From the NCBI GenBank assembly GCA_958009055.1, contig OY253652.1:1116001-1180000 (forward strand): 64,000 bases of DNA, in the 5' to 3' direction. Under the pieces are notes generated by a model, which ran no database searches, was not told the origin of the DNA, and saw nothing but the letters and a program-made list of their open reading frames with translations. The position numbers and the translations under genes were made by a program. Source of the DNA: Choricystis sp. odSpoLacu1 (Eukaryota > Chlorophyta > Trebouxiophyceae). Positions 746-50,863 of the stretch are shown piece by piece (the first letter of the stretch is position 1; each line of letters starts with the position of its first letter).

Positions 746-3568
746 TCAAGGCTCGGCCGCCGCGACGCCGCCCCCCTCTCCACCCTCTCCCTCCACCACC
801 ACCCTCTCCTGTGGTGCGGCTGGGTGGCCCAGCCGAACCCGCATCGAGTCATATCTTCTCGCCTCCCGAGGGGACACGCTGGGCACCACGCTGGCTAGGG
901 CCGCCTGGAAGTGGCGCCCGCACACGGTGGGCGGCGGCGGCGGCGGTGCGCCCCCCTCGCGCGCCGCATCGGCCGCGGCCGACGCGTCCTTGAGCGCGGT
1001 CAGCGATGCCTCCCGCACCAGGGCCGCCAGGTCGGCCCCACTGAACCCGTCGCACGCGGGCGACGCCGCCAGGGCGGCGGGGTCGGTGCCCGGGGCGAGG
1101 GGTGTGCGCCGCGTCAGCGTCGCCATCACCGCGCGCCGTTCTGCGGCCACCGGAAGCGGCACGTACAGCGCCTTGTCCAGCCGCCCCGGCCTCAGCAGGG
1201 CGGGGTCCACCATGTCGGGCCGGTTGGTGGCGGCCACCACGTAGACCGCGCCGCGAGGGGTGAGGCCGTCGAGCTCTGTCAAGAGTTGGTTGACGACACG
1301 GGCAGCGGCGCCACCATCCGAGGACCCGCCCTCCCCGCCACCACGGCGGGGGGCGAGAGCATCCAACTCGTCAAAGAACAGGATGCAGGGGGCGGCGGCC
1401 GAGGCGCGCGCGAAGAGGCGGCGGACGGCGGCCTCCGACTCGCCGACGTATTTTGACAGGAGTTCAGGGCCCTTGACCGACACAAAGTTGGCCCCAGACT
1501 CGGCCGCCACCGCGCGCGCCAGCAGCGTCTTGCCGCACCCGGGGGGACCGTGCAGCAGCACGCCGGCGGGGGTGGCCAGGCCGAGGGCGGCAAAGGGGGC
1601 GGGGTCGCGGATGGGGCGGGTGATGGCATACTCCAACGCATGCCGCACCCCCGCCAACGCGCCCACGTCGTCCCACGTGGCGGCGGGGGCCGTGGTGAAG
1701 CCTTCCCGGCGCACGGAGGGTTGGACGCGACCCAGGGCGGCGTCAAAGTCGGTGGGTTCGATGGCCAGGGTGGACAGTTCGGCGGGGGTGAGGGGGCCCG
1801 CGCCGAGGCGGGGGGGTGGAGGAGGGGCGGAGGTGGTGGCAGCAGGCCCATCGGTGTCCATGGCGGCAGCGCTGGTGGTGCCAGCCTCGCCGCCAGCAGC
1901 GACGGCCGCCGTTTTTTCCAGCGCCTCAAACGCGCGCGTCGCGGCCACCGCGGCTGCCTCCTTGGCCAACGCCTCCAGGTCCGCCCCCACATACCCGGGC
2001 GTCCGCCCCGCCAGCACGTCCACATCCACGGCCGCCCCCAGGCGCAGGCGGCGTGTGACGACGCGCAGGATGGCGGCCCGCGCCGCGGCGGTGGGGATGG
2101 CCAGCGCGATCTCTCGATCAAACCTCCCCGCCCGCCGCAGGGCGGCGTCCAGGGCGTCGGGGCGGTTGGTGGCGCCCATGACGATGACGTGACGGGCGGT
2201 GGTGGTGGAGGCGGCAGTCGCGGCGGCGGCGGCAGCGTCAGAAGGGGGGGCGCTGTCGCCATCACCGCCCCCCCCCCCCCTCTTCCCCACCCTCTTCCCC
2301 CCCCTCCTCCCCACCCACCGCGCTCAAATCGTCCATGCACGTCAACAGCTGGGCCACAATGCGCCTCTCCATCTCGCGCGCGCCCTCCCGGTCCCGCTTG
2401 GGGGCCAGGGCGTCGATTTCGTCGATGAAGATGAGGGAGGGAGCAGCAGCCGCAGCGGCACCAAAAAGGTCCCTGATCTTTCCCTCCGACTCGCCCGACA
2501 CGCCCGCCACCAACTCGGGGGCGGCCACCCCGAAGAACGGGACCCCCAGCTCGGTGGCGATGGCGTGAGCGAGGGCGGTTTTGCCGGTGCCGGGGGGGAC
2601 CGTGCAGCAGCACGCCGCGCGGAGGGGGGACGCCAAGCCACGCAAACACCTCTGGGTGGCGCAGGGGGTACTCCACCAGCTCCCGCACAGAGTGGAGCAC
2701 GGTGTCCACGCCCCCCAGGTCGGCGTAGCGCACGGAGCGGGGGCGGGAGGGGGTGACGGCGGCGGAGGAGGGGCGCGCGGAGGGAGCGCCGCGCGGCGGC
2801 GCTCGCGGACCGCCGACGCGGGCGCGCTTGGCGGCGGGGCGTGAGAGTGGAGCCGGGCCAGCGGATTGACCACCATTCACAGGCGTGTGTGGTGGCGGTG
2901 GCGGCGGCGGGCGGGACGCGTAGGAGGCGAGGAGTGTCGTGTTGACGCCGCCCCCCGGCGCAACGCGGCGCGCACCCGCCTCCCCGCCCAACGCCGCCGC
3001 GGCCGCCGCGTCGGACACGGGGTCGACGTCGGCCCGCGCGTCTCCGTCGACCGCGGCGGCAGCGTCTCCGTCGGAGGAGGGGGAGGAGGAGGTTGCTCCA
3101 GACGACGACGAAGACGAAGGCCCATCTTCTTTAACACTGCCACCGCCGCCTCCGCCTCCCGCCAGGGCCACCGCCAACGCACGGGCCACCATGACGCGAA
3201 ACGGGGCGGCGGGGCGGCGCCTGTACTCGGGGTGGGCGTCACGCAGCGCGGCAGCGAGCGTGTCGGCGCCGCCCGCGGCCAGGGCGGGGGAGGCCTGGAG
3301 GAAGGACGGGGGGAACGGTGAGTCAGTGCATAGTTTGAGGCGACGGTCCCACATCTGTGGCTGGAGCAAGGCGGCGAGGCAAGGAGGGCGGGCGGCACCG
3401 GCCAGCGAAATGCTGCCGCCGCCGGCTGCTCGCCCCTCTCGCCGCCCCCGTCCAACACTCTCTCACCCTGGCCAACGCCTGCACACGGGGCACCAGCTGT
3501 TTGTCCAGCACGTAGCCGGGTTTGGCGCCCACCGCGGCCGCCAGGGAGGAGGCGTTGCGGCGCCCCAT
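746..3568 (-). CDS. NVL: Nuclear VCP-like AAA ATPase (NVL/Rix7), apparent frameshifts
   Basis: A tandem AAA ATPase of the NVL/Rix7 branch of the CDC48 family, which releases assembly factors from pre-60S ribosomes in the nucleolus. Exons are 3568-3467 and 3294-746 (intron 172 nt, phase 0), about 880 aa, matching NVL. The N-terminus ([15 protein letters not shown], then [19 protein letters not shown]) resembles the NVL nucleolin-binding winged helix and an acidic/Ser-rich linker follows. D1 has GPPGTGKT and [11 protein letters not shown]2 has [10 protein letters not shown] and [10 protein letters not shown], and both have [14 protein letters not shown] sensor motifs. The frame breaks twice. 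The first break is in a C7 run inside the D1 Walker A codons (2592-2598, plus-strand G run), where six would keep frame. The second is in a C13 run (2268-2280) within a Gly/Glu-rich insertion between Walker B and sensor 1. I could find no phase-compatible intron at either site. Indel error is likely. Confidence 0.85.
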
Positions 3569-3729
3569 GCTCTGTGTGTGAGCTCTCACTCTTCACCTGC
3601 GAAGAGTGAAAGCGATTTTTCAACATTTTTCTTTTGCTCTTTTTGACTCGCGCGCCCGGGGCGAGGCGCGCCTCTCTCCTCCTCCGTTGACGTCTTCACA
3701 CCACACACACTGCAACCACCACCCCTCAC
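3569..3729. promoter_or_regulatory. Divergent intergenic region NVL / U-box-WD40
   Basis: Only 161 bp separate two divergent start codons, so both core promoters and 5' UTRs must lie here. I see no convincing TATA box. There is a T-rich stretch near 3617-3645. Confidence 0.4.
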
Positions 3730-5662
3730 ATGCGGTGGGACCAGCCGCTGCGCGCCTTGATGCCCGCGGCCGCGCGCGGCGGCACGCGCGACCGAGCGCC
3801 CGGCGACGCCGAGTGCGACGCGGACGGGTGAGTGTGTTTGTGGGTGTGTGTGTTAACCACCAAGGCGTGCTTGGCCGCTCGGGTGCCACCCAATTTGGGG
3901 GCGCCAACAACGTCGAACACGACGAAAACCCGTCCGCCACGCGGGCGGGCACGGAAAAGCGCCTGCTGTGTTTTGCTTTGAGCTCCCCGCCTTTCCCTCC
4001 CACGGAAACAGTGCGGACACGCCACTGATGCATCTGCTCCACCGGCGGCACAAGCGTGGCGAGGGACGACCCGGGGCGTTGCACGAGCGCGCGCACGCGC
4101 GGATTAGGCATATGCCCTCGCTCGAAAAAACGACGCGACATCCAACGCCGACTCCTCTCCCCTTCCTCTCCCATCCCACCAGCCTCGCACCACCCTCTGC
4201 ATCCACATCAACCGACGCGCCGACGCGCGGCGGCGCCACAGACGCCGCTGACGTGCCACCCTCCCCGCCCCCCGTCCCCGCGCCCTTCTGCTGCCCCATC
4301 TCGATGGAGTACATGGCCGACCCCGTCATCCTGGCCACGGGGCACACGTATGACAGGCCCTGCATCGAGAGGTGGCTGGCGGCGGGGCACACGAGCTGCC
4401 CCGCGACAGGGGCGCGGTTGAGGCACCTGGAACTGACACCCAACTTTGCCCTGCGCGACGCCGCGGCCGTGTGGGCCGCGTCCGTCGGGGTGGAGCTGCC
4501 GGGCCCGCCCGATGGGCGGCGCACGGTGGCGGCGGTGGTGTGGAAGGGGGAGAGCGCGAGCGGCGACGCGCCGGCTGCTGCCGAGCTGGCAGCCCCCGCC
4601 CCTGCCGCCGAGGCAGCCGCCGCCGCCCCCTCGCCCCGCACAACCACCGCCACACTCTCCCATCCATCCGTCCTGCACGGCCACAACGAGATTGTGTGGG
4701 CTGTCGAAGCCGCCCCGGGCGGGCGGGCCGTGTCGGCGTCAGCCGACCGCTCCCTGCGCGTCTGGCACGCAGCCTCCCGCCGCTGCGAAGCCGTGCTGGA
4801 CGACCACGCCCGCCCCGTGCTGTGCGTGGCGGTGTGGACGGGGTCCAACACGGGGAGGTCGACCCTGTTTTCTGGGTCGTACGATAACACCATCAAAGCG
4901 TGGTGCCTCTCCCGCCTCGCCCGCACCGCCACTCTGACAGGGCACACGGACGCAGTGCGCGCCCTGCTAGTGGTGGGGGACAGGCTGTGGTCTGCCTCGT
5001 ACGACGGCAGCGTGCGTGTGTGGGACTGCGCGACGGGGGAGGCAGTCGCCACGCTCACAGGCCACACCGGCCCCGTCCGCACCCTGGCCGCCGTCGGGGG
5101 GCGCGTCTTCTCCGGCTCCTACGACCGCACCGTGCGCGCCTGGGAGGACAGTCCTGCACCCACGTCGGCTGGTGTTCTTGCCGGCCACACAGCCGCCGTG
5201 CGCGCTCTGGCCGTCGGCGGCGGCCGCCTCTTCTCCGGGTCGGACGACGCCACCGTGCGCGCGTGGTGCCCCTCCACCGGCCGCTGCACCGCCGTGTTGA
5301 CGGGGCACGCGGGTAACGTGCGCATGCTGGCCGCGTCGTCGACGCGCCTCTTCTCCGGCTCGTGGGATCGGACCGTGCGCGCGTGGTCGCTGACCTCCCT
5401 CACCTGCGACGGCGTGCTGGATGGCCACGGTGAAGCCGTCCTGGCGCTGGCTGTCGGCGACCGCGTGCTGGCATCGGGATCATATGATGCCACTGTGCGG
5501 TTGTGGGATTTGGACACGCTGGCCTGCGTCCGCGTCTGCGGCGGCCACGCGGACGCAGTCCGCGTGCTGGCCGCCGGCGACGGCCGCATCTACTCGGGCA
5601 GCTATGACGGCAGCGTGGGCATGTGGCCAGAGGGTGGCGAGGAGGAGGACGGGATGACGTAG
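3730..5662 (+). CDS. U-box plus WD40-repeat protein (probable E3 ubiquitin ligase)
   Basis: Exon 1 is 3730-3827 (canonical GTGAGT donor) and exon 2 is 4183-5662. The phase-2 junction joins exactly in frame, which is why I prefer this start to ATGs inside the intron. The product is about 525 aa. Residues 60-130 form a U-box: PFCCPISMEYMADPVILATG, HTYDRPCIERWL and CPATGARL. The rest is about eight WD40 blades with the recurring pattern LxGHxxxVRxLxxxxxRLFSGSxDxTVRAW. A U-box recruits E2 enzymes and the propeller binds the substrate, so this is probably a ubiquitin ligase; the target is unknown. The order U-box then WD40 differs from animal WDSUB1 (WD40-SAM-U-box) and resembles TRAF7, which carries a RING instead. 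Confidence 0.85.
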
Positions 5663-29311: not shown

Positions 29312-31357
29312 TCACGGCTGGGCCGTCGCCGGCTCCACCACACCACCACCCGCCGGCTTCTCGGGAGTGGACACGGTGACCGAGTCCTGGGGCGCAAACG
29401 GGTTGGCCAGCTTGACGCCGGTCGACCCTGTTCCGATGGGGGCAGACTCGGGGGAAACATCGCCCACCGTCAGCAGGGGGGCTTTGGGGGCGACCGCAGG
29501 GCCGGGCACAAAGTCGGTGACCCGGTTGAGGGGGAGCTCGGGCAGGGCGAAGACCTAGTTCTTGAGGTAAAAGGAAAGGGGTGGGGACGGGGTGTGTGGG
29601 TGAGGGTGCGAAACGAGAGCAAAGGAAGGCACACACACCACACACACTCCACCATTTTTGTCAACCACTCACCGACCCGCCGACGGGCACCTCCAGCCGG
29701 GGCAGCGTCAGCACTGGGCCGGACGACGGCTTGACGGGCTGCGTCGCAAACGACAGCGCCTTGGGCGCGGGCATCGGGGAGGCAGCCGCGCGGCGGGGCA
29801 TGGGCGGCACCGCGGGCAGGGGGGCGTCGGTGGCGGCCTCGATGACGTGAGGGGGGAGAGGGGGGGCGTGGGCCGCGTGGGCCGCGTGCGCGTGGGTCGG
29901 GGCGGGCGCAGCGAGCAGCTTGCGGCCGGCGGCGGTGGGGGCGGGGGCGCGGCCGGCGCGAGGGCGGCCGGCGGGGGCACCCAGGCGGCGCACCGACGCC
30001 CAGGCGGCGGGGGGCGGGAGCGGCGGCCGCCTTCTTGGCGGTCTTGACAGCGGCGGCCGGGGGCAGCAGCAGCAGCCTTGGGCGCGACGGGCGCGCCAGC
30101 GCCCGCCACCGCCTCCGCCACCGCGGACACGGCGTCATCCACGGCGGCCGCCACGTCGGCCGCCTGGGAGGCGTCCATGTCGTCGTCGGACGCGTCGACG
30201 GCGGCGGATGCGGCCTCCGTGTCGGCGTCGGCGTCGACAGCTTCACCGAGAGCGTCAGTGGCGTCGGTGACCGCGGCCGCGATGGCCGCCACGTCAGCGT
30301 CGGTCACACCGTCGGCGTCACCAGCAGCATCATCCAGGGCGGCAGAGATGGCGTCGACGATGGCGTCAGTCGCGGCTTCCTCATCCACCGCGCGCAGGTT
30401 GCGGCCCGCGTGGGGCGCCGCGTGGTGGCGGGGGGGGCGGCATCTGTTCCTCGGTGCCGTCCTCCGAGGTGACGGGGGCTGCGTCTTCTTCGGACACAGA
30501 GGGGGCGGCGCGGGAGCGGGGGCCGCCCGCGGCGCGGGGCTGGGGCGCGGCGACCACAGGGACCGGGGGCGACTGCAGCGCTGCCATGATGGCGCCCGGG
30601 TTGATGGGCACGTTCTGGGCGGGCAGGGCGGGCAGGCCCAGCTGGGAGACAGCCCCAAACTCGGGCAGCGGGATGTTGATGGCGCCGGGGGCGGTGGCGG
30701 GGGGCGCCCGCGGGGGACGCGGCCGCGCGCGCGAGCGGGGCACCGCCAACGGACGCCTTGGGCGCGGGCTGGGCCATGGCCGTGGAGGCGGCGTCGACGG
30801 CGGCCGCCATGTCGGCGGCGGCGGTGGTGGCTGGGGTGGGGAAGAGGTGGTGTGTGAGCGAGAGAGGCTTTTCCGTTGTCGCGCGGCCCGCAGAAGCCCG
30901 CGCCTCTCCCGGGCACACACGCAGTCCTCTGTCCTTCCTCCCGCTCTCTTCTCTATCTCTTTGACTCACCAGGGCTGTGTGTGAAGAGGCGCGCGGGGTT
31001 AGGGGGGAGAGAGGGGCGCAACAGCGAGTGAGCCAAACGAACAAAAACCACATGCGCGCGCGCCTGCGCGTCCAACGCGCCCCCACGCCACGCCCTGCCC
31101 ACGGCTTTGGCAGCCTTCCTGCCGCCAGTTTGGGTCACCCCTTATAGCGTAGACCGTGTTGGCGGGTGGCGCGTCCGCGGCGAGGGCCGGACAGCGCGGG
31201 ACTGGGCGGCAGTTTCCGCACGCATGCCGCGCGCGTGCGCGCGTGGTGGTGGTCGTGTTTGCGCGTCCCTCCGCCACCACTCTCCCCCCCACACTCACTT
31301 GGCAACCGGCGCCGCGGCAGCGACGGCCAGCAGCGCGAACAGGGCGAGGACGCGCAT
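29312..31357 (-). CDS. Secreted Ala/Pro/Asp-rich LPxLP protein A, with 5-nt microexon and four apparent frameshifts
   Basis: I do not recognise a family. Proposed exons: 31357-31299 (signal peptide MRVLALFALLAVAAAAPVA), microexon 30974-30970 (CCCTG), 30830-29673 and 29554-29312. The microexon is required to connect phases and has canonical borders. The product, about 485 aa, begins Ala-rich, then has INIPLPEFGAVSQLGLPALP and an Asp/Ala helix-like block (about 90 residues, VDEEAATDAIVDAISAALDD and on). A Lys/Ala stretch and the end LTLPRLEVPVGGS-VFALPELPLNRV follow. Within exon 3 the sensible frame shifts four times, at G/C runs 30709-30714, 30430-30437, 30059-30063 and 30009-30014. Each shift is repaired by removing one base. 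It shares LGLPALP and intron phase with protein D. Wall or matrix location is inferred. It could be a decaying gene. Confidence 0.6.
30970..30974 (-). other. Putative 5-nt coding microexon
   Basis: Coding-strand CCCTG between the acceptor CTTCACACACAG and a perfect donor GTGAGT. A CTAAC branch-point-like motif lies about 25 nt before the acceptor. With it, phase 2 of exon 1 (AA) plus 5 nt leaves one base that joins the two-base start of exon 3, giving Asn-Pro-Ala. Without it the exons are out of frame. Confidence 0.6.
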
Positions 31358-31487
31358 GGTGTGGTTTTGGGGTTGGGGGGAGGCTTTTGGCAGGGACAAA
31401 AACGGGTTTCGAGGTGTGGCGTTTTTCTGTTTCTCCGTCACTCCCTTTTGTCCCCGCGGCGCACGCCCCCTCTCTTTCACCAAGCCA
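31358..31487. promoter_or_regulatory. Divergent region between secreted-protein genes A and B
   Basis: 130 bp shared by two divergent genes that both encode signal-peptide proteins, suggesting co-expression. It has a G/T-rich half next to gene A and a C/T-rich half next to gene B. Confidence 0.45.
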
Positions 31488-32898
31488 ATGACCTCCCGCC
31501 TCCTGCTGCTGGCCGCCCTGGCGGGCTGCGCGGCCGGCTTCAAGGTGCGGGCATGAGGGCGGCGGACAGGGTTGGCGGCATCTTGCGCACTTCGCCGGGG
31601 CGCTCCCTCTGCCCATGCGCCTCACGGCCGTCAAAAAGCAATGATGGAGGAGCCACTGGCAGCTTTGAACGCGTGCGAGGGTGTGGGCGGGCGTGGTGCG
31701 GAGCGCGCGTCACGTGACGCGCCTCAGTCAGCCCACCCCATCCCCCCCCTCTTCACAGCCCCTCAACCTGAACTCCACCCTGGCCACCGGCAACGCGTCC
31801 CTGGCCAGCCTGAAGACGGCGCTGACGACTGCGAATTGGACGAGCCTGAAGGCGGCCGCCCCCCTGCCGGCCATCGACCTGGCCGCCGCGCGGGCCAAGG
31901 TGGTTTCCCAGCTGCCTGCTCCGCCGTCCTGGTTTGTGGACCAAGCGCCCGCCGGCGACATGACGTGCTACGTGGACCCCTCCAGTGGCCGGGTGACGGG
32001 GCTGGCCCAGGGAGGCCAGGTGTTCGGGTACTCTACGTCCAAGGCAGTGAACGTGCCGCTCTCAACATCCACCCTGGTCGACGTCGAGTTCGTGTTGACG
32101 GCGCCCACCACGGTGGGGTCGTTCATGTTTTGGGTGGTGCCCGACGGCGGCAAGAAAGCGGTGCCCGTTCTGTGTGGTGTCAAGCCGCCGACGCCGAAAA
32201 CTGCGTTCAGCGCGGCAGGAGGCGCCACCCACGGCGGCTCCACCATTGTCGAGTTGACGGCTGGCTTCAACCCTCCCACCGCCGCTGGCTCTGGCAGGCG
32301 GCGGCGCCGGCTGGCGCAGACGGGGGGGGCGGGAGGGGGCGCCCCGCTGTCGACGGTCAGCGTGGCGGTCGCGCCCGCGGGCGGGGGCGGCGTCACGACC
32401 AGCGGCGGCGGCGGCGCGTTCAACCTGGTGCCGTCCACCATTCCACTCGACGGTCCCTGCACCGTGCACCAGTACAACGGCCCCGACACAGGGGGCGTAT
32501 CGTGCCAAAACTGTTTGTTCAAGCCGGTGGACCAAAATTCGCAAGTGACTGCAGGTGAGAGGGTTTTTTTGTCTGCCGCTGTGTTTGCGAGGGCGTGTGG
32601 ATCGGCGCACGAGTCTCACTACACGCCCTTGCCATCCTTGCACACAGCCAACTTCAGCAACGTGCCCTCCTACAACGCGCAGTGCGGCAAGTGCCTGCAA
32701 GTTGTCAACCTCAACCAAACCGACGCGCCGCCCCTGTTCTTCACAGTTATTGACTACAAAGGGGACCCAGGTTTGGACCTGAACCAAGGCTACACCTACG
32801 CAAGGTGGTCGTCAATTTATCAGTACGGCAAGGTGCCGTGCAAGTGGGCGTTTGTCGATGCATCGAACTGTCCGTGGACGCCCAACGTGGACAGATGA
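31488..32898 (+). CDS. Secreted double-psi beta-barrel (expansin/RlpA-like) protein B
   Basis: Exons 31488-31544, 31759-32554 and 32648-32898; 367 aa. The signal peptide is MTSRLLLLAALAGCAAGFK. Residues 20-180 are an unknown region with no Cys-rich motif. Then comes a basic motif GSGRRRRRLAQ, a Gly-rich linker and a C-terminal double-psi barrel: GPCTVHQYNGPDTGGVSCQN, SYNAQCGKCLQVVNL, PPLFFTVIDYKGDPGLDLNQ, GKVPCKWAFVDASNCPW. Cysteines are spaced as in expansin domain 1 and barwin. There is no second expansin (CBM63) domain, and the HFD motif of plant expansins is absent, so loosening activity is unproven. Donor 1 is GTGCGG, weaker than the others. Intron 2 (93 nt) is a multiple of three without stops, so its retention would add 31 residues. 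Confidence 0.82.
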
Positions 32899-33269
32899 GA
32901 GTGGGCAAACACGCGTGCCTTCCCCACGCGTTTGCCTTCTGTGCTCGCCATTGTTAGACAAGGGGGTGGCGCCTTGTTAGACTCCGCCGTCCATCCCGCC
33001 ACAACAGGCCTGTTGTGGCGGGATGGTCGGGGAGTAAAGTTTTTTTCCTTTTTTTCATTGAAACAAAAACGTGATGTTCTTTTTTTTGGGGGGTGTTGGG
33101 GAAAAGCCACACGACCCGTGTACACACACAAGAGAGACGTAGACGATGCCAAACACACCACCTTTTCTTCGTGTGCAGAGGAAACTTGCTGCTTTTGACT
33201 TATTTACAAAATTTCCTTGTTACCTCGCACACACAAACACCTCCCCCTTCTCTTCTCAACGACCCACAC
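32899..33269. other. Intergenic region with a strong palindrome
   Basis: A convergent gap between gene B and the EMSY-like gene. Besides the palindrome it holds two copies of TTGTTAGAC (about 32953 and 32976), a small ACAAGG/CCTTGT hairpin between them, and T-rich DNA at 33040-33090. No gene is visible. Confidence 0.6.
32992..33025. repeat. Perfect 34-nt palindrome / hairpin
   Basis: CATCCCGCCACAACAGG is followed directly by its reverse complement, giving two 17-nt arms without a loop. Imperfect pairing extends the arms by about nine bases on each side. It lies about 95 nt after the stop of gene B. It may be a 3'-UTR stem or the remains of a small inverted-repeat element. Confidence 0.9.
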
Positions 33270-34172
33270 TCAATACGCGCCCCGGTAGTCGCCTGCGTAC
33301 GCGGGCGCACCCCCTCCCAAAAAGCCGTCATCATCAAACCCAGAGACCGGGGCCGACGCAAACGCGGCGGCTGCCGCGGCGGCGGCCGCAGACGGCACGA
33401 CGCCGGAGCCCGCGCGGCTGGCGCCGACACCGCGCGCGCGCGCCCGGCCGCCAACACCAGAGGGTGCGCTACCACCACCAGCCACCGCCGCCCGCGGCGC
33501 GGCACGGGCGGCCCCGGGCGCGGGAGGCGGCAGCGACCGCACGTCCACGCGCTCTCTCCCCACGACACACTCGGTGGGGGCCGCCCCCCGTACCCGGAAC
33601 CACTCAAAGGACTCGCGAGCGGTGCCGATATCGTAGACAATGCTGCGGGCGTGGGTGTGTGTGGGGTGAGTGTGTGTGTGTGTGTTGGGGAGAGGGCAGG
33701 CAGCCTTCCCCCCCTCCCCAACCCTCTCTCTCATCTCACCAGTGCTCCCGTGTGGCCGGGTTGTAGTCGGTCAGCACGCCGTCAAACCAGCCGCCATGCT
33801 CGGGCCAGTAGCGCTTGACGCGGTGGCCCAGCAAAGCGTCCACCCCCGGCAGCGCGTCGGCAGCGGGAACGGCACCACCGCTGCCGCCGCCGCGCGCGCG
33901 CGGCTGCCGCCGCCGCCGCGGGCGCCCCCGCTGGCGGACGGGGCGCCCCCGCCGCCACCACCACCACCACCACCCGTCAACCAGGGCGAGTCGACGCCGC
34001 GTTCGACCGCGTCGCGCAGCGCCGCGTGCCGCGCGGGCGGAATCGCCAGCTCCCCCCGCAGCCGGGACAGCATGGCCTCCTTCTGCATGGAGTACTCGCC
34101 CGCCAGGAAGCAGCGCACGACGCGGCAGTAGGCTTCCTCGCGCAGGGCGCGCAGCGCGTCGGCGGCGGACAT
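33270..34172 (-). CDS. EMSY-like protein: ENT domain plus Tudor/Agenet domain (one apparent frameshift)
   Basis: Exons 34172-33740 and 33642-33270, about 270 aa. Residues 5-60 are an ENT domain: LREEAYCRVVRCFLAGEYSM, QKEAMLSRLRGELAIP. After a Gly/Ala-rich linker comes a Tudor-like domain: LLGHRVKRYWPEHGGWFDGV, LTDYNPATREH, then IVYDIGTARESFEWFRVR, closely like plant EML proteins (RYWPEDG.WFEAVITDY; VYD..T..E..E...L). Plant EMLs read histone H3 marks in the nucleus and act in defence and development. The C-terminal 90 residues are Ala/Gly-rich. The frame changes inside the Gly linker (about 33880-33975, GGT/GGC repeats). I tested the available GT/AG pairs and none fits the phases, so a repeat-length change or assembly error is likely. 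Confidence 0.85.
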
Positions 34173-35031
34173 GAGAGTGTGGGTGGGTTTGGGTGGTGCG
34201 AAAAGACAGAGAGAGTGTGGGTTTCACACAAAACCACGCCCACGGTGTGTCCCGCTGTGTGGCTTGTTGATCAGCTGAGGCAGAGTGAGAGGGGGAAGGG
34301 GGAATAGGTGAAGCGGCACGGGTTCGCGGGGTGGAGGCGGCGGGCCGGGGGCGTGTGGTCCCAAAACCACCTGTCCTCCCCTTCCCCCACCCCCTCGCGA
34401 GTCACAGGCGGCGCTACACAGCACGCATGCGGGCCACAGCGCAGGGCGCGGGGCTGGGTGGTTCGCGTACACGCGGGGCGGCCGGCCGACGCGGACGGCG
34501 AGCGGATGCGCAAAGAAAACACGCACGCTGGCGACAGGCCACTCACCTGGCGGCACGCGATGTGTGCCTGGCTGTGATCAGGGAAGCACGCAGGCGGGTG
34601 TGCGTGCGTGGGGGTGCGTGCCGCGTGTCGCGCGGGGGAGGCGAGAAGCGAGACACAGAGTGTGAGTTTTTTTTTTTCCCTCCGCGTCTCCCCACAGTCC
34701 CTCTTTTTCGCCTTCGCTTCAGGTGCGCGCCCGTGTGGGCCTCCCCCGCGGCATGCGGCCTTGTTTGCTGCCACCACACGCCTCTCCTTGCCCCTCCACG
34801 TCGCCCACAGGTGGCGTTGTCCGAGTCGGGCCGCGCTTTTGGGGCCAACCTCCCCGCGCCATTGCCGCGACACCCGCGCCCACTCCCTCCACGCCTCCCG
34901 CCCACACGCACACTCCCCCTCCACACCGCAGGTCGCGCGTGGGCATACACGCCAACTGTGTCCAGGGGAGCGTTTCCTCTCGCGGTCCCCCTCTTCGCAC
35001 ACCCCCTCCCTAGCTTCCGCATTTTGCGCCA
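34173..35031. other. 0.86-kb intergenic region without recognised gene
   Basis: The divergent gap between the EMSY-like gene and secreted-protein gene C. Open frames on both strands lack family motifs and show Arg/Ala/Pro composition typical of shadow frames in GC-rich DNA. It probably contains the 5' UTR and promoter of gene C; untranslated exons are possible. Confidence 0.5.
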
Positions 35032-37083
35032 ATGCGTGCCAACGTGGTGAGTCTGGCCGGGGCGGGGTGTCACGCGCGTGTTTCCTGGTCTGCTTCCCCT
35101 TTAGTACGAAGCCAACTGCGTACTAGCGTGGACTAGCGGCAGCAAAAGTCGGGGAAACGGGGGAGGTGGCGCCCACGGGGCCCCACGTGCAAAAGCAGGA
35201 AGGCACCTTCTCCCCCACCACCCACCACAACACAGGCCGCCCTGGCGCTGGCCGCCCTGCTGCTGACGGCGGGCGGTGTGGCCGGCAAAGACAAGTGAGT
35301 GTGTGGTCGACTATTTTTGTTTGGACACGTGGTGGAGGCGCGCAGGCCGGCTTGTTTTTCCTCACCACCCTTTTCCCCGCCACCCTCTCGCAGCAAAAAA
35401 ACCAAGCACGCCGCCCCCGCCCCCGCCCCGTCCGCCCCCGCCCCCGCCCCCCGGGCGGCGGCGGCCAAAGCCGTGGCTGCGTTCCCCGCGCTGGCGGTGA
35501 CGCAGGCTGCTCCTGCCGCGCCACGCCTGCCCCCCCCCTTCCTCTCGGCCGCCGCCCAGCAGCCGCGCCCGCCCGCACTCAACGACGGCGCGCTGCAAAC
35601 CGCCGCCGACGCGGCCGCCGCCACCGCGTCCGACGCCCTGCCCAAGGCGGCAGCCTGGGTGGCTGCCCACCCTGAGGTCAAGACTCAAGTGGAGACGCTG
35701 GCGGCGACAGGGGTGCCCGGGTTTAACAAGACGAGCTTGAAATTGTCGCCGAATGACGTCGGCACCCTGTCCCAGGCGGCGGCCGCCGCCAACACGGTGA
35801 AGACGTTTTTGAAGGCGTTGCCGGCGGCCACGAGTGAGCTTCCGGGGGCGTCCACGGCGGCGGTGCCTCAGCCGGGGGTGTTTCAAACCGCGCCGTCGCC
35901 CACGGGGAGGTTCACCGTCGGCTCACCCTCGGCCGCCATGACCTTCAACACGGGCACCTCCCCCATGCCCGCCCCCGCGGCACAAGCGATCAACCAGATG
36001 CTGACCGCGGTCACGCCCAATGTGGAGGCGGCGGCGTCGTTCCTGGAGAATGTGGTGCCGTCGCCCCCGCCGCCGCCGCCGCCGGCCGCGGGCACCGAAC
36101 TCTTTGCCCCCGTCGCCCAGGCGGCCGCCGCCAAGCTGTCGGGGCTGCTGGATGGTGTGGCGGCAGACGCGGGGGCGCCGCGCGTCACCAAGGTGACGAG
36201 CCAGCCGATGTCGACGTCGGCGTTTGGGCGGCGGCGGTTTCTGGCGGTTTCGGCTGCGCTGCGCCAGCCCTCCCTCGCGTCCCTGGCAGCGGTGGAGGAC
36301 CCCGCGCCGACGACGGCAACCCCTGGTGTGCCTGTGTTGCTGCCCGCGGGGACGCCGGGCCAGCCGGCCATGCCCCAGCGGCCGGTGGTGGTGGCGCCCG
36401 CGCCCGCGGCTGGTGTCGTGGCGCAGCCTGCCGCTGTTCAACAACCAGTGACAACGGTCGCCACCGCGCCGCAGGCGCCCACCCTGGCCGCGCCACAATC
36501 TGTGCCCGCTGCCGCGGAGGCGGTCGACCCCACCCCTGCCGCCCCCACCCTACCCGCCCCCGCTGCCCCCGCCCCCGCGCCGCGGCGCACGTTTGAGCTG
36601 CCGCGCCTGCCCGCCCCGCCCCGCCCCGCCCCCCTGCCCCTGGGCGCACTGCCCCCCGCCACCGCGCCCACCGCGCTGGAGCTGGATGCGGCTCGGCCGA
36701 GGCCCGCGTTGCCCCCCGCCGCCGCCCCCAACCCGCGCCGCGCCGACACGCTGACCACGCTGGCCGACGCGCTCGGCTCCGCCTTTGTCGCGCTGTCCCC
36801 CTCGGTGGCGCCCGCCCTGGGCCCTCTGCCCGTCAACGGCAAAGTCGAGTTCAAAGAGGTGGCCCCCTCCCCCGGGTCGGGCCCCGCGCTGCCAGAGGTG
36901 GTCGTCCCCACCGCCCGCGCAGGCACCATCACCCTGCCCGCCGCCGCCCTGCCGGCGCCCGGCTCCCTGGACCTGGCCAAGATCAATCCCAAGGGCGACC
37001 TGATCTGGACCAATCCTGGGGGCGGGACGGCGGGCGGGGCGGCGTCCATGGCGGCGGGGGGTGGGTCGGTGGGGGCGGGGTGA
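35032..37083 (+). CDS. Secreted Ala/Pro-rich LPxLP protein C
   Basis: Exons 35032-35046 (15 nt), 35236-35294 and 35394-37083; 587 aa, no frame breaks. The signal peptide MRANVAALALAALLLTAGGV is spread over two exons. The codon at the second junction is split AA|C (Asn), exactly as in gene A. The mature protein has a (PA)n block, an Ala-rich helical region with DALPKAAAWVAAHPEVKTQV, NDVGTLSQAAAAANTVKTFL and a Pro8 stretch. A basic FGRRRFLAVSAAL site, Pro/Val-rich repeats and LPRLPAPPRPAPLPLGALPP follow. It ends GDLIWTNPGGGTAGGAA. No known family. High Pro/Ala and secretion suggest a hydroxyproline-rich-type wall or matrix protein, but typical SPPPP/pherophorin domains are absent. Confidence 0.75.
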
Positions 37084-37590
37084 GGGCGAGAGAGAGAGAG
37101 CGTGTGTGTTTTTGGTTTTCTTTGCTCTCATTTTTCCTTTTAACAACTGCTGAAAATCGTGAACACAAGGCTTTTGCTTGAAAAGCCTCCGTGTGTGCGG
37201 GAGACGGCGACGGCGGCGCGAGAGTGGTGTGCGAGTGAAGCGTTCTTTTTTTCACGCACAAAAAAACAGCCACACTCTCTTCTGCTTTCTTCTTGAACCT
37301 GGCCCCCCAATCTGGCCCGCCGCCGCACGCGCGCGCCTTGTAATCCAGGTAAGCACACAACGCAAGGCAGGGACGGGGAGGAGGAGGGTGGCGTGTTGGG
37401 CGGGGCGCGAGCGCGCGCGTTGGCACCGCGGGCGATGGGGCGGGTGGGGGCGGCCCGCGCCACCGCGCTTGCGGCCGCCTCCCGCTCTGTGTGTGCGACA
37501 CTAAAGCTCACTCACTCTGACAACACACACAACAGCTCACAGATTCCACCGCCGCCTTCCCTTTTTTGTACGACAAAAAAAGGACTCCCA
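37084..37590. other. Intergenic region between tandem genes C and D
   Basis: 507 bp: a GAGAGAGAG tract right after the gene C stop, T-rich DNA, a perfect hairpin (37168-37188), and the upstream region of gene D with an A-rich stretch just before its ATG. No further gene is seen. Confidence 0.55.
37168..37188 (+). repeat. 8-bp hairpin in the gene C 3' region
   Basis: AGGCTTTT, loop GCTTG, AAAAGCCT: a perfect 8-bp stem with a 5-nt loop, 85 nt after the stop of gene C. The distance is similar to the palindrome behind gene B. It may mark a 3'-UTR structural element. Confidence 0.7.
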
Positions 37591-38795
37591 ATGCGCCACG
37601 CCGCCACCGTGGTGCTGGCCGCCAGGTGAGTAAAGAGACGGCACTCTCTCCATAACTGCTGCCTGAGTCGATGCTCTAGCTTGTATGGCACTGTGTAGTG
37701 GGGACGGGAGGCCGGCGCAGGACAGGAGGAGGGCGGTACCCAGCCGACAGCGCCCCACGAGCCCCGTCAACCATCCCACCACCCCACCCCACAGCCTGCT
37801 CGCCTCCCTGGCCGCCGCCACCCCCATCAAAGTGTCATTTGTGGCCACCAAGCCCACCCCCCCCGCCCCCGCCCCCCACGCCATCGTGGCCGCCCCGCGC
37901 GGGGGGGCAACGTCTTTTGCGACGACGGCGCGCCACGCGGCGCCCGCTCCGGCCCCCACGCCGCTGCGTGCCAAGAGTGCAGTCGCGGCCAAGAGCGCGG
38001 CTCCTGCGCCCGCGCCTCTGAAAGCGGTGGCGCACGCGCCGGCGCCGGCGGCCCTGGCCGCCAAAACTGTGCCGCTGCCGGCGCTGCCCGCAGTCGGCTC
38101 CCTGCCCGCCCTGCCCGCGCTGGCCCTCCAGACGGGCCGCAAAATGCTGGAAGCCGCCGACCCGGACGACGACCAGACGACGCTGACGGATGTGCTGCTG
38201 CTGCCGGAGCCTGCCAAAACGCCGTCGTCCGCCCCCGCGGCCCCCGCCCCCCCCGCCCCAACCCTCCCGCGCTGAGACGCGGCGCGCCCGCAACGCGGGC
38301 CTGGCCAAAGTGGTGGGCAGCGCCATTGTGAACGCGGTGGCGCCCGTGGATGCGAGCGCGCCCGCGCCGCCGCCGGCAGAGGTGCCTGCTGTTACTGACG
38401 CCCAGCGCGCCGCTGTGCGCGGCCTGAGTGTCACCGACGCCCCCTCCATCAATGTGCCGGGTGCCATCGTGCCGCGCGGCATCGACACGCCTGGAGAGGA
38501 AGGGTTTGTACTGCCCAGCGACGCGGAGCAAGCGGGCGCCGACGCAGAGGCGCGCGTCGCGGCAGGCGGCTCCGCCGCCGCCCCCGCCCCTGCCCCACCC
38601 AAGCGCACGGTCAAGCTGCCCGCGCTGCCGGCGTCCTCCAACCTGGGCCTGCCGGCTCTGCCCCCGGTGGCTGTGGGGGTGGACCCCGCGGCGATCCCAA
38701 AACCGCCGGCGCGGCGGGAGGGGGCGCCGGTTGATGAGGAAGTCGCGTCCGTGGATGGTGTGGATGTTGGCGGTGCTGCGGCTGTGGCGCCGTGA
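37591..38795 (+). CDS. Secreted Ala/Pro-rich LPxLP protein D (one apparent frameshift)
   Basis: Exons 37591-37625 and 37795-38795, phase 2, split codon AG|C; about 344 aa. The signal peptide is MRHAATVVLAASLLASLAAA. The mature part is (APAP)n-rich, with VPLPALPAVGSLPALPALAL, TGRKMLEAADPDDD and, after the frame change, LAKVVGSAIVNAVAPVDAS, SINVPGAIVPRGIDTPGEEG and VKLPALPASSNLGLPALPPV. The last segment aligns with SQLGLPALPAQNVPINPGAI of protein A, so A and D are related. The frame changes at about 38231-38260, within a C-rich stretch with a C8 run. Dropping one C joins both halves. The first frame would otherwise end at TGA 38273-38275. No known family; the role is unknown. Confidence 0.65.
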
Positions 38796-45638: not shown

Positions 45639-48600
45639 CTACAGCTCATCGTGCGCCGCCACCGCCCCCTCCCCTCCCCCCACACCACCCTCCTCCACGC
45701 CCGCCCGCTCCGCCGCGATGGCCGCCTCCGCCCTCGCCGTCGCGGCCGCCGCCTCCCGGTCGTACTCCACCCACTCAGGCGCAATGCGGCGAGCAGCATC
45801 GAGCTTGGGCTCCTTGGTCAGAGGGTTGTTGCACAGGTCGATCGTTTTGGCGGCCCCATTCGTCGCGTTGCCGCACCACGTCTCGCACCACAACCACTCC
45901 TGGGGCAGCGAGTGGATGGGCACCGCGTGCTGCGCATAGTTGGGCAGGTCTTGGTCCAGGTTGGCCAGGGAGGCAGGGTCGCGGGACAGGGAGTCATACT
46001 GCACGCGCAGCCTGTCGCCCGCGGCCAGCGACCGAAAGCGCGCCAGGTCCACCACGTACAGCGCGGAGATGTGGTAAGGTTTGCCCGCCAGGTGGGTGGC
46101 CCAAAACCCCGTCTTCCAGAAGCGGAAGCCGTCCATGTGCTTGTTGTTGTCGCAGAAGGGGACATACGCGTAAGGCGCCCCCTTCAAATCCATCCTCCAC
46201 AACTCACCAAAATCGGCCCTCACAACCTGGTCGGAATCCACAAAGATGACTTTCTTGAGGTTGAGTGGGAACAGGGCGTCCAGGAACAGAATTTTGTAGG
46301 CCCAGATGATGCGCTGTTTTTCTGTTTGTTTGTGCAGCCAGTGTGGCCACTTGTACGTGACAAACGCGTATTCAAACCCTTTCTCGGCCGCGATGCGGGG
46401 CAGCACCGCCCGCATGGAGGGCGACATGTAGTTTTTGATAAACCAAAACTTGACGCGCGAGTGGGTGTGGGCCAGCGTCGACAGCGCCATGATTTTCTGC
46501 AGGCGTTCATACATGTGGCCCGACGCCACGGTGAAGATGTGGATGCAGTCGGGGTCGTCCTCGGCGGACAGGGCGTGGTGAGTGTGGGAGGAAGAGGGCG
46601 AGGGCGACATCTTGTGACCGCCACCAAACAGCGCGCTCCACCCGCTGCGACCGCCACCAGCCGCCAGCACGTCTTCATGCTCCTTGCCCGCCCGCTTCCT
46701 CAGCCGCAGCGCGATGTGGCGCCCGGACAGCGACTCCACCGCCACCGTGACGGTGGTGTCGTCAGTGGTCGGCAGCGCGGCGCCGCGCGCGCCGCCGAGC
46801 GGGCGCCCGTCTGCGGGCCCCGTCGCGTTCGAGACGGTGTACAGGTCGGCCGACCGCCCGCCCGCCAGGGCCAGCGAGTACACGCGCGGCGTGGAGGCTT
46901 GCAGCTGGAAGTAGCCCAGGTTGGCCATGACGAGCGTGTCGGCGACTGTGGTGGCGCGAGAAGGGGAGGGGGTGGCGGGCCCGTGCGCGCCTGCTTTCTC
47001 AACCGCCCTCAACTGCAGCTGCACGCCGCGCGGGGTGACCGCGTCCCGGGTGACGGCGGTCACATCCACGCAGGACCCGGTCAACAGCAACGCCTCCAGG
47101 TCGAACGACGCGGTGAGCGACGCGCCGGGCAACCGCCCCAGCACCAGGTTGTCCAGGTCGGCCCCGCCCGACACGTCCACCGCTTCCGCCAGCCAGCCTT
47201 CGGGCACGTGCAGGTTGAGCGTCAGAATCTTGGAGGCGGGCAGGCCGGTCGCCACGGCGGCGGGGGGCAGCGGCTCGCCGAGCGGCGCCGCGTCGGTCGT
47301 TTTCGGCTCAAACGTCGGCAGCGCGGCAGCATAAAATGTGGTCAACGGCAGCGCGGTCGCGTCCAGTGCCGGATTGAGCACGATGCGCAGGGTGGCCGGG
47401 GCCAGGCCGTCCCGCAGGGACAGGAGCAGGGGGGCCAGGCGCTGGGCGGTGGGGGAGAGCGGGTCGACGACGGCGACTATATCAAGGGGGGCAGCGCTCC
47501 CCTCCTCCTCGCTGCCAGCATCAAACGCCAGTGGAGACGCAGTGACCGCGTCCACCGCGTCCACGGCGGCGGCACCGCGGGTCGTGGCGGCGGCCACCGG
47601 GTTGGGGGGGGCGGCAAGAAGTTCTGCGACGGCCGCGGCGGTCACGTCGCACGCGCGGCAGTCGGTGTCGTCACCGCCAGCCGCCGCCCCAATCGTCTTC
47701 AACTCGGCCGCCGTCAGGAACGCCAGCTTTCCCGCCACCGAATGCGACTCAAGCAAATGCACGTCGGCCGGGGTGAGGGCGGCCGGCCCCTCGCCATCCA
47801 GCACCAGGTGCCCGTTGGACACCAGGGCGCGGGCGCCCGGGGCCAGGCCCAGGCCGGCAGCGCACAGGGCGGCTTGGGCGGTGAGCTCTGCGTCGGCGGT
47901 GGCCAGGGCGGCGACGGCGGGGGCGGCGTCAGCGCCGGCGGCCGCGGCCGCCGCCCGCAGCGTGGCGGTGGCGTCCTTGTCGGTCGCCACGCCGGCCGCC
48001 ACGCCTTCATCCAGCAGGGCCGCCAGCAGCACGCGCCGCGCGGCGCCAGGGAGAGGCTTGCGGCCGGGCGCGGTGGCGGCGGCGGCGGCGACGACCGCGC
48101 GCGCGAGCGGTGGCACACCGCCACCACAGTGCAGCACGGCACCCCGCCCGCCCACCGCGCGGGGAGGCGGAGGAGGGGGCGCCCCCGGCCGCACCGTCAC
48201 CTTGGCGGGAGCGTCGGGCGGGGAGGCGAGGTGGGTGAGGAGCGCGCGCGCGAGCGCGCGGCCTGCAGTGGTGCCCACATCAACAGCCGCCCAGTGCGTC
48301 ACCGCGTCGCCGGCGCCCGTGTCGGAGGTGGCGTACCGCAGGCGGGCCAGGGCGGGGGTGGAGAAGTTGAGGAGCGGGCCCGTCAGGCACAGCTGGCGGG
48401 GAGGGGGGAGGCCAGTGGCAGGCGGGGCGGGGGCAGAGGCAGCGCGACCGTCTGCGACGCCGCGCGCCGTCACGCGCGGGTTGAACCTCGGCAGCGCACC
48501 CGCCACAGTCAGAATGCGGGCCAGCAGGTGGGTGCCGTCATCGTCATCATCATCCTCGTCTTCGTCATCGTGTGAGTCGGGGACGCCGTCCGCGTCGGCC

Positions 48601-50863
48601 TGCGTGATTTCGCCATAATACACCCAGGCGCCGACTGCCGCGACCTCGGTCTGCACTCCCCACGCCAGCAGGCGCCGCGCGTCGCCTCCCGCGTCCGCCA
48701 CAGCCGGCAGCAGCACGCCATTGAGCCAGACGGACGCGCCGGAGTGGGGGGCGGGGGCGAGGCCGGCGGCGGCAGCGCCCACGAGCGCGGCGGCAGCGAC
48801 GGCCGCCGCCGCGGGCGTTTCGGCTGCCGCGAGCGCAGTGTCCGCTGCGGCGGCTCCGCCCGCGCCACGCCCCCGCATGGAGGCACGCAGCGCGTCCGCA
48901 AACGCGGCCAGGGTGACAGGCTTGCCGTCCAGGGCGGCCAGGGCGGCCAGGCCGGCGCGCGAACCGGGGGCGGTCGCGGCCGTCAGCGCGCGGCCGACGC
49001 GCGCGCACTCGCCCGCGTCCGCCCACGGGGCGCCGCACTCGTCACCCGCCAGCGCCAGCAGCCCCACGCGCAGCGGCCAGCGCGATGCCAGCGCGTCGGC
49101 GGCGGCGGCGGCCAGGGACGGGGCGCCGCGCGCGCACGGGTCGAGGAGCAGCACGGCTGAGAACGCGTTGAGCCCGATCGTGGGCAGCTGCCCCGGAAAC
49201 GACGGTTGCAGCAGGGTGCGCAGGGAGGACGGCCACCCCGCGTACGCGTCATCCGTCTCCAGGTCGTTGGCCCAGGCGATGGCGGGGCGGGCGGGGGTGG
49301 ACAGCAGGTCGACCCGCGGCGCTTGGGGGACGGCGCCGCCGTCGCCGTCGCCATCATCCAGCCCCGCGCGAGACCGCAGCCTCAGCACGGCCGCCACACT
49401 GCCCCCGGACGGCACGCCCGCATCCGCCAGGGCGGCCGCCAGCCTGATCTCATGGCGGGCGGCGTCGACAGCGTCCGAGAGTTCGATGGAGGAAGCGTCG
49501 GCAAGCAGGCCGTTGATGGCCAGCAGGGAGGCGCCAGGGGCGAACCTGCGCCCAGCGGCAGCCGTGGCGGCGGCACGCAGAGGCGCAGGGACGGGCGTCT
49601 TGACGAGGCGGGGGGCGGCTGCAGGGAAGGTGGCGGCACTGGTGGCCAGCGCGCGCAGCGGGTCGGGGGCCGCCAGAATCCGAGCGGCGGCCTGCAACCC
49701 CACGTCTTTCAAGTCCCACGCCTTGATGGGGGCGTCGTCGGCCCGGGCGGCGGTGTCCAGCAGGCGGTCGCGCAGGGCGTCCAGGCCGGCGGAGGCGGCG
49801 GGAAAGCGGGACTTGAGGGTGGAGAAGACGAGGCCGTCGACCGTGTCGGGAAGAGAGGCGTCTGCGCCACTCTTCTCCTCCCCTTTCCCCTCGCCCTCCT
49901 TCTTGGCGTCGTCCACCGCCAGGTATTCCGTCGACTTGAGCGCGTACTCTGCCCCGAAGCCGGGCAGGGCCAGGCGGCCGCCTGCCCCCAGGGCGAGGCA
50001 GCCGCCCGCGTCGGCGCACGCGGGCGTCGGGAGCGTCGGGCGCCACGCATAAGACAGAGCGACCAGCGCTTTTGTGTCCTTCACCGCCGTCACCAACGCC
50101 GCGTGCATGGGGGCAAAGCAGGGCACGCCAGGAGGCGCGTACAGGACGACCGCCGCGGGCGGGCGGGGATCGGACGAGGGAGAGGGAGAGGCGGGGTGGA
50201 CGTGGTCAAACTCATATAGAGCGGGTGAAGCCGCCGACGCCGACACTTTCGCCAACGCCTGTGCCAGTCCCTCCGCCTCCGTCACCACGCCCCCACCCGG
50301 CACCACCGCCACACAGCACGCGCCCGTCTTGGACGCAGCCGCGGCCGCGGCGGGGGCGTCGTCCGGCAGCAGGGAGGCTGTCAACGCGACGCGCGCCGAG
50401 TAGTGGCGCGCGCCGAGAGCGTAGAGCAGCGCGCGCGCCAGGGGGGGCGCCAGCCCCGCCCCGCCCACGCGGGCCAGGGCGGACCAGCAGGTCTCGTTGG
50501 GGGTGGTGGTGGGGGTGGGAGTCCACGCGTCCGCAAACGCCCACAGGTGGGCGGGCGACTCGTCGGCCTGTGGGCGTGGAGTTGAAGGCGGTCGATCGTT
50601 TGATGGGAGGGAAAAGAGGGCGCCGATCTCTGCAGCACACGCCGCCGTCTCCTCCTCCCCATTCTCTCTCAATGTGTGCAATTCATCAGGCAGCACTTGC
50701 TACCCCAATCACTCACCAAAAACTCGGCCACCTCCAGCACGAGCGGCGCGGCGTCCCACCCCGCGCTCAGCGTCACGGTGGCTGACCCGGTGCGCGGTGG
50801 CGAGACTGCCGCCAGGGCTGGCGCCAGCAGGGCCAGCAGCGCCAGCGGCGCGAGGCGAGGCAT
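45639..50863 (-). CDS. UGGT: UDP-glucose:glycoprotein glucosyltransferase (ER folding sensor)
   Basis: Exons 50863-50717 and 50567-45639, phase 0; 1691 aa. The signal peptide is MPRLAPLALLALLAPALAAV. The long N-terminal region holds the thioredoxin-like folding-sensor domains (VLEVAEFL-ADESPAHLWAFAD start; LNLHVPEGWLAEAVDVSGGA further on). The last 300 residues are the GT24 catalytic domain: CIHIFTVASGHMYERLQKIM, KFWFIKNYMSPS, the DxD motif VIFVDSDQVVRADFGELWRM, PFCDNNKHMDGFRFWKTGFW and LANLDQDLPNYAQH. The protein ends in HDEL, the ER-retention signal. UGGT adds glucose to N-glycans of misfolded glycoproteins so that calnexin/calreticulin rebinds them. The 4.9-kb exon is uninterrupted despite very high GC. 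It is divergent from the INTS2-like gene, 196 bp away. Confidence 0.97.

Follow-up and report, generated by a model that had tools for sequence, protein, structure and literature searches.

The closest described systems to the genes considered here are the hydroxyproline-rich glycoproteins (HRGPs) and arabinogalactan-proteins (AGPs), as sorted by the motif and amino acid bias (MAAB) scheme, the proteins with a Barwin domain (PF00967) or an expansin domain 1 (PF03330), and the silaffin-, cingulin- and SiMat7-like wall-pathway proteins of diatoms, which combine a signal peptide with an RXL cleavage site according to PMC5501833. With these systems we compared a cluster of four genes, A to D, on chromosome 4 of Choricystis sp. 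odSpoLacu1, the cobiont alga of the sponge Spongilla lacustris. The window, that is the whole stretch of 64,000 nucleotides that was analysed, covers bases 1116001-1180000 of this chromosome (1,225,090 bases, GC 70%) in a genome of 14,593,115 bases and 19 contigs, and all positions given for the cluster are counted from the first base of the window. The results suggest, with a probability of roughly 0.55, that A, C and D are AGP/HRGP-like secreted glycoproteins of the wall or matrix and that B is a Barwin-like wall protein. The four genes are the following.

29312..31357, minus strand: gene A, with a signal-peptide-like exon (31299-31357) followed by Ala/Pro-rich pieces in several frames
31488..32898, plus strand: gene B, with exons 31488-31544, 31759-32554 and 32648-32898, encoding 367 amino acids
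35032..37083, plus strand: gene C, with exons 35032-35046, 35236-35294 and 35394-37083, encoding 587 amino acids, intact
37591..38795, plus strand: gene D, with exons 37591-37625 and 37795 on, and a phase-2 intron at 37626-37794

The initial annotation had placed four genes with signal peptides at about these positions; the genes were confirmed, and each has a hydrophobic N-terminal stretch. The 12-residue Kyte-Doolittle maxima within the first 30 residues were 2.95, 2.51, 2.62 and 2.43 for A, B, C and D, respectively, in comparison to 1.70, 1.46, 2.05 and 1.73 in the remainder of each protein, and by these signal-peptide-like starts the four gene products are apparently secreted. No Pfam cut-off was passed by C, by both frames of D or by the three pieces of A that were scanned (the first and last exons of A were left out of the scan), in agreement with the annotated lack of a known family for these three genes, and the same holds for two relatives of C, P0004 and P0005.

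To describe the composition, AG motifs were counted with the set [ASVTG]PP?. The thresholds of more than 45% Pro, Ala, Ser and Thr (P+A+S+T) and of at least 15% of the sequence in HRGP motifs were those given in PMC8471777, and the values for A and D were computed on joined frames. The P+A+S+T content of A, C and D was 52.0%, 55.2% and 54.2%, and the motif coverage was 15.8%, 17.0% and 20.3%, respectively, so that all three exceed both thresholds. Among 136 likely coding open reading frames (ORFs) of the sampled sequence that served as background, both thresholds were passed by four, three of which lie within A, C and D and hence inside 9.5 kb, and the fourth, at another sampled locus (L009), had no secreted look by eye. 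Since the cluster had been chosen by composition in the initial annotation, this enrichment is to be read as a description and not as an independent test. As assembled, A, C and D contain no cysteine, and a C-terminal hydrophobic anchor signal was not seen by eye in C. With their signal-like N-terminal stretch, P+A+S+T content, AG motifs and lack of cysteine they resemble the MAAB class of AGPs and HRGPs without a glycosylphosphatidylinositol anchor, and they differ from it by conserved non-repetitive blocks in C and by an LPALP module in A and D, the hydroxyproline glycans being putative here.

A large database was searched with B, with residues 80-330 of C and with residues 100-344 of D joined across its frame break, A being left out; each search scored about 8,000 candidates with the most words in common, and low-complexity relatives may escape such a procedure. 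B retrieved itself and P0002 (72%), and C retrieved itself, P0004 (93%) and P0005 (61%). The blocks PGFNKTxLKxSPNDVGTL and TITLPAAALPAPGSxDLxxINPKGDLIWTNPGGG of C were kept in both relatives while other regions varied, and the main exon of C is supported by these relatives. The splice models of B and C have clean GT-AG borders, with a phase-0 first intron in B and introns of phases 0 and 2 in C. P0002 is without the second intron of B (window 32555-32647) and reads straight across that junction, which supports the gene model of B; the difference may be an intron gain or loss between the relatives, or P0002 may come from a cDNA-like source.

Gene B encodes, behind its signal-peptide-like start, an unrecognised N-domain (residues about 33-237) and a Barwin-like double-psi barrel (residues about 251-367). 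When the barrel domain was cut out alone, it scored 22.8 bits with the Barwin profile (PF00967, cut-off 21) in B and 24.2 bits in P0002, and P0002 gave 21.3 bits in a partial profile match. Neither PF03330 nor the expansin C-terminal domain was matched in scans of the whole protein and of the cut-out domain, and the B locus is not among the seven PF03330 matches of the genome. Thus, of the annotated expansin-like double-psi barrel, the Barwin likeness stands marginally and the expansin assignment does not: the core CGKCLxVxN...IxDxxxxPGLDLN of B matches Barwin above the cut-off in the domain taken alone, and B differs from the Barwin and expansin domain 1 proteins in matching the middle of the profile only, in carrying no PF03330 or expansin C-terminal domain, and in being fused to the unrecognised N-domain. 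By this marginal match, B appears to be a Barwin-like double-psi-barrel protein and no canonical expansin. PF03330 exceeded its cut-off at five loci elsewhere (C8:275161-275397, C10:428170-428367, C7:782739-782936, C9:57525-57695 and C9:59852-60019), which are possibly true expansin or RlpA-like genes.

The N-domain of B recurs with 32% identity at C4:526092-526697 and C13:213454-214062 (E 2e-5 and 1e-4). The ORFs flanking both loci gave a weak BNR repeat match below the cut-off, and signal-like stretches precede them by eye. The translated ORFs of these BNR-like proteins (L004, C4:524592-528197; L005, C13:211954-215562) were nearly identical by eye, with GGRRLTAA late in the N-domain. This near-identity points to a recent duplication involving chromosomes 4 and 13.

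Whether A, C and D form one family was judged by motifs, alignments and introns, all of which the initial annotation had advanced. LPxLP occurs twice in A, four times in D, once in C and not at all in B. In composition shuffles its chance was 0.0007 for A, 0/20000 for D and 0.12 for C, and a Markov control, which is stricter, gave 0.014, 0.0014 and 0.31, respectively; the motif is therefore above chance in A and D, and the single copy of C is not, although both relatives of C retain FELPxLPxPP. The alignable stretch reported between A and D was recovered as an ungapped segment of 61 residues with 26 identities and a score of 107, which none of 2000 double shuffles equalled (maximum 105), and which spans a frame change of A without a break. 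The shared module defined by this similarity and by the ORF queries is located as follows.

30588..30701, minus strand: module shared with D, in gene A (PATAPGAINIPLPEFGAVSQLGLPALPAQNVPINPGAI)
38583..38696, plus strand: module shared with A, in gene D (PAPAPPKRTVKLPALPASSNLGLPALPPVAVGVDPAAI)

Among 2598 six-frame ORFs from sampled genome sequence, the 38-residue module of A ranked D first after itself (score 83, next 51), and the module of D ranked A first after itself (76, next 55). A possible weaker second copy at residues 101-127 of D scored 10.5 on the two-sequence profile, a value that 3 shuffles and 8 Markov sequences, out of 300 each, also reached, and as an ungapped query it did not retrieve the main copies. 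For C the results were negative throughout: ungapped A-C and C-D scores were reached by 169 and 38 of 300 shuffles, the module of A scored 33 against C (equalled by 1411 of 2000 shuffles), and the blocks of C retrieved only noise among the 2598 ORFs. The similarity of A and D is real, and no kinship of their companion C to either could be detected, so the all-against-all comparison joins A and D only and not the three genes as one set. Gapped alignments among A, C and D were set aside as evidence of kinship, composition dominating them.

It is doubtful, in our judgment, that composition accounts for the whole resemblance, in which case A, C and D would be secreted proteins independent of each other, Ala/Pro-rich in a GC-rich genome, neighbours by chance and without a joint role. 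Such an account agrees with the alignments of C, with the whole-length gapped A-D and A-C alignments, as good as which were 33 and 36 of 300 shuffles, and with the introns: early phase-2 introns, which had been taken as a mark of common descent, are unspecific, because in two other genes at one sampled locus (L036) a phase-2 donor is likely, by eye, 17 and 59 nucleotides from the start (one of these genes we take to resemble an RNA polymerase subunit, the other is a small unknown). The first intron of B is of phase 0. The common phase was thus rejected as a mark of kinship; C and D do have the annotated phase-2 intron, whereas in A the AA|C junction (donor 31298, acceptor before 30830) opens into a frame scoring -4.1, and the coding-looking frame beyond this intron, scoring +11.4, requires a different phase. 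The same account is opposed by the ungapped A-D module, above all shuffles and a reciprocal best match, and by the concentration of AGP-like ORFs in the cluster, with the reservation already made on how the cluster was chosen.

It is unlikely, though supported by the state of the reading frames, that A and D are decaying duplicates and that B and C are the only working genes. Reading frames were followed with a Viterbi model of codon usage, for which 87 long ORFs served as the training set, and the coding pieces of A are listed here with the remaining features of the cluster.

about 30708-30829, 30439-30707, 30015-30438 and 29668-30014, last exon ending at 29312, minus strand: coding pieces of gene A
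31358..31487, no strand: A-B intergenic stretch of 130 bp, flanked by the start codons of the two genes, which are divergent
33270..34200, minus strand: EMSY-like gene within the cluster, outside the secreted set (ENT domain 32.6 bits, cut-off 28.5)

In A the frame switches at 30014/30015 and 30438/30439 and once more near 30707, that is at least three changes, and in D it switches at about 38264/38265, just upstream of an in-frame stop at 38273-38275, the coding signal continuing in another frame to 38795. Decay would also agree with the large-database result for D, and a consensus quality of 51.1, as published in PMC12141999, argues against several assembly errors inside 10 kb. On the other side, the assembly was built on 16x long reads, coding signal was found on either side of the switches at 30014, 30438 and 38264, the A-D similarity runs ungapped through a frame change of A, and runs of 5 to 8 G or C stand at the switches of A (G runs) and D. 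The EMSY-like gene, whose annotated interruption of the cluster was confirmed by the ENT match, seems to behave alike, with an apparent frame change in a GC-rich stretch by eye. The frame breaks of A and D are thus probably assembly errors. The 130-bp stretch between A and B could possibly be a shared promoter giving joint control of the two genes.

Several results weigh against AGP-like glycoproteins beside a Barwin-like protein. In the assembly neither A nor D is open, and their composition therefore rests on joined frames; the P+A+S+T threshold by itself was passed by 25 of the 136 ORFs, one more ORF (L011) fell just short of the motif threshold with 14.95%, and Ala and Pro are inflated by the 70% GC of the genome, standing at 17% and 9% in the training ORFs. 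For D, residues 100-344 of the joined frames retrieved nothing but itself from the large database. The whole-protein Barwin score of B was 18.9, below the cut-off of 21, and covered only positions 53-93 of the 119 in the profile; barwin structures matched P0002 at E 0.12-0.13 only, and a structure model of P0002 built on two sequences had a mean predicted local distance difference test (pLDDT) score of 29, useless for fold comparison.

No convincing paralog was found in the genome itself with the second part of D, its 36-residue module (one candidate scored), the middle piece of A and two pieces of C as queries, the first part of D and the other pieces of A being outside the search, and the annotated expansion of the set is thus unsupported. 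Matches of C fragments in L036, L037 and L039 (E 0.0013, 0.019 and 0.098) were rejected as chance low-complexity similarity, that in L039 without its sequence being viewed, and six further weak matches of the A piece (E 0.005 to 0.08), which lay at other places or on the opposite strand, were set aside as low-complexity by their extent and were not individually inspected. A, C and D are possibly restricted to the lineage: for the annotated lineage-specific wall set, the few relatives retrieved by the searches described and the wall- or matrix-like AGP composition speak in its favour, and the wall role would follow from family knowledge.

A feature overlooked in the initial annotation is the pattern GR[RK]{1,4}x?[LMF], present as a single copy in each of the four proteins and found in 140, 353, 407 and 231 of 20000 composition shuffles of A, B, C and D, respectively. 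It was spotted visually in hindsight, and no joint significance is claimed.

29913..29927, minus strand: GRKLL, motif of A
32293..32313, plus strand: GRRRRRL, motif of B, ahead of the barrel domain and in the late part of the region that its relatives share
36226..36243, plus strand: GRRRFL, motif of C, in a form kept in both relatives of C
38135..38149, plus strand: GRKML, motif of D

The motif (GR[RK]xL) was kept in both relatives of C and in P0002, and the BNR-like relatives of B carry it at the equivalent aligned position. It was not enriched in the bulk coding sample (14 occurrences in comparison to 11.0 expected from shuffles, and 3 of the reversed motif), and an unbiased screen for residue-class words, 5 to 7 in length, that the proteins might share had no result. 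The motif was absent from the lipase strand in L045, L046 and L047 (loci of 1.8 kb that perhaps do not cover whole genes) and, as far as they could be placed, from the fasciclin reading frames of L042 to L044, and is therefore not general. A literature search pairing RRLL with Chlamydomonas, signal peptide and secreted found no report. The likeness to the diatom RXL proteins lies in a basic residue shortly before Leu, and the differences in lineage and composition, cleavage in the alga being hypothetical. Given this visual discovery and the lack of enrichment in bulk coding sequence, cleavage at the motif is put forward as a hypothesis only. We consider it quite improbable that A to D are co-secreted proproteins in which the one-copy GR[RK]xL motif serves for processing, as the green-algal version of the RXL code, and that they jointly form a surface coat specific to Choricystis, of possible importance where the alga meets its sponge host.

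The motif was also seen at two sampled loci. In L042, a Lys/Ala/Pro-rich ORF at about 2611-3318 with a signal-like first exon (MARTLILAAVAALAAVVAVTG) carries SSGRRRLEQ and adjoins a fasciclin-domain gene. In L017, a lipase class 3 match (2200-4594, 65.2 bits) has TGRRRLTAA in the upstream ORF and adjoins the telomere at the end of chromosome 4, where the repeat (about 4850-5090) is (CCCTAA)n, of TTAGGG type; the common plant type is TTTAGGG. A single long ORF on the minus strand of the window (45642-50699) encodes a UDP-glucose:glycoprotein glucosyltransferase (PF18404, 458 bits).

If A, C and D are AGP/HRGP-like glycoproteins, these cysteine-free, Ala/Pro-rich and presumably largely disordered proteins would be directed to the endoplasmic reticulum by their signal peptides, would receive O-glycans on hydroxylated prolines in AP, TP, SP and VP dipeptides, may be cut at the single GR[RK]xL site, and would then be incorporated in the wall or extracellular matrix. 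B would be a secreted two-domain protein; the most likely role of its Barwin-like barrel is to bind or loosen glycans of the wall, and its N-domain may serve for binding or anchoring. What the sequences show directly is the gene structure of B and C, the composition, the A-D module, the conservation of B and C in their relatives and the marginal Barwin match, whereas we infer disorder, secretion, glycosylation, cleavage, wall location and any joint action from knowledge of the families.

To our knowledge, the catalogue of wall and matrix proteins is poor for small trebouxiophyte algae. Literature searches on LPALP and LPxLP returned only work that was unrelated by title and the start of the abstract, a search combining barwin, green alga and expansin found no report, and among the matches listed for any two of Choricystis, cell wall and arabinogalactan there was no Choricystis. 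The cluster yields two protein sets without a known family (C, and A with D) and an unrecognised N-domain that occurs next to a Barwin-like barrel in B and next to BNR-like parts elsewhere, and the GR[RK]xL site provides a testable processing motif. Frame breaks at G/C runs can conceal such genes from annotation. The genes of the cluster look like ordinary though little-known components of the outer coat, and as surface proteins of a sponge-cobiont alga they would be candidates for the interface with the host.

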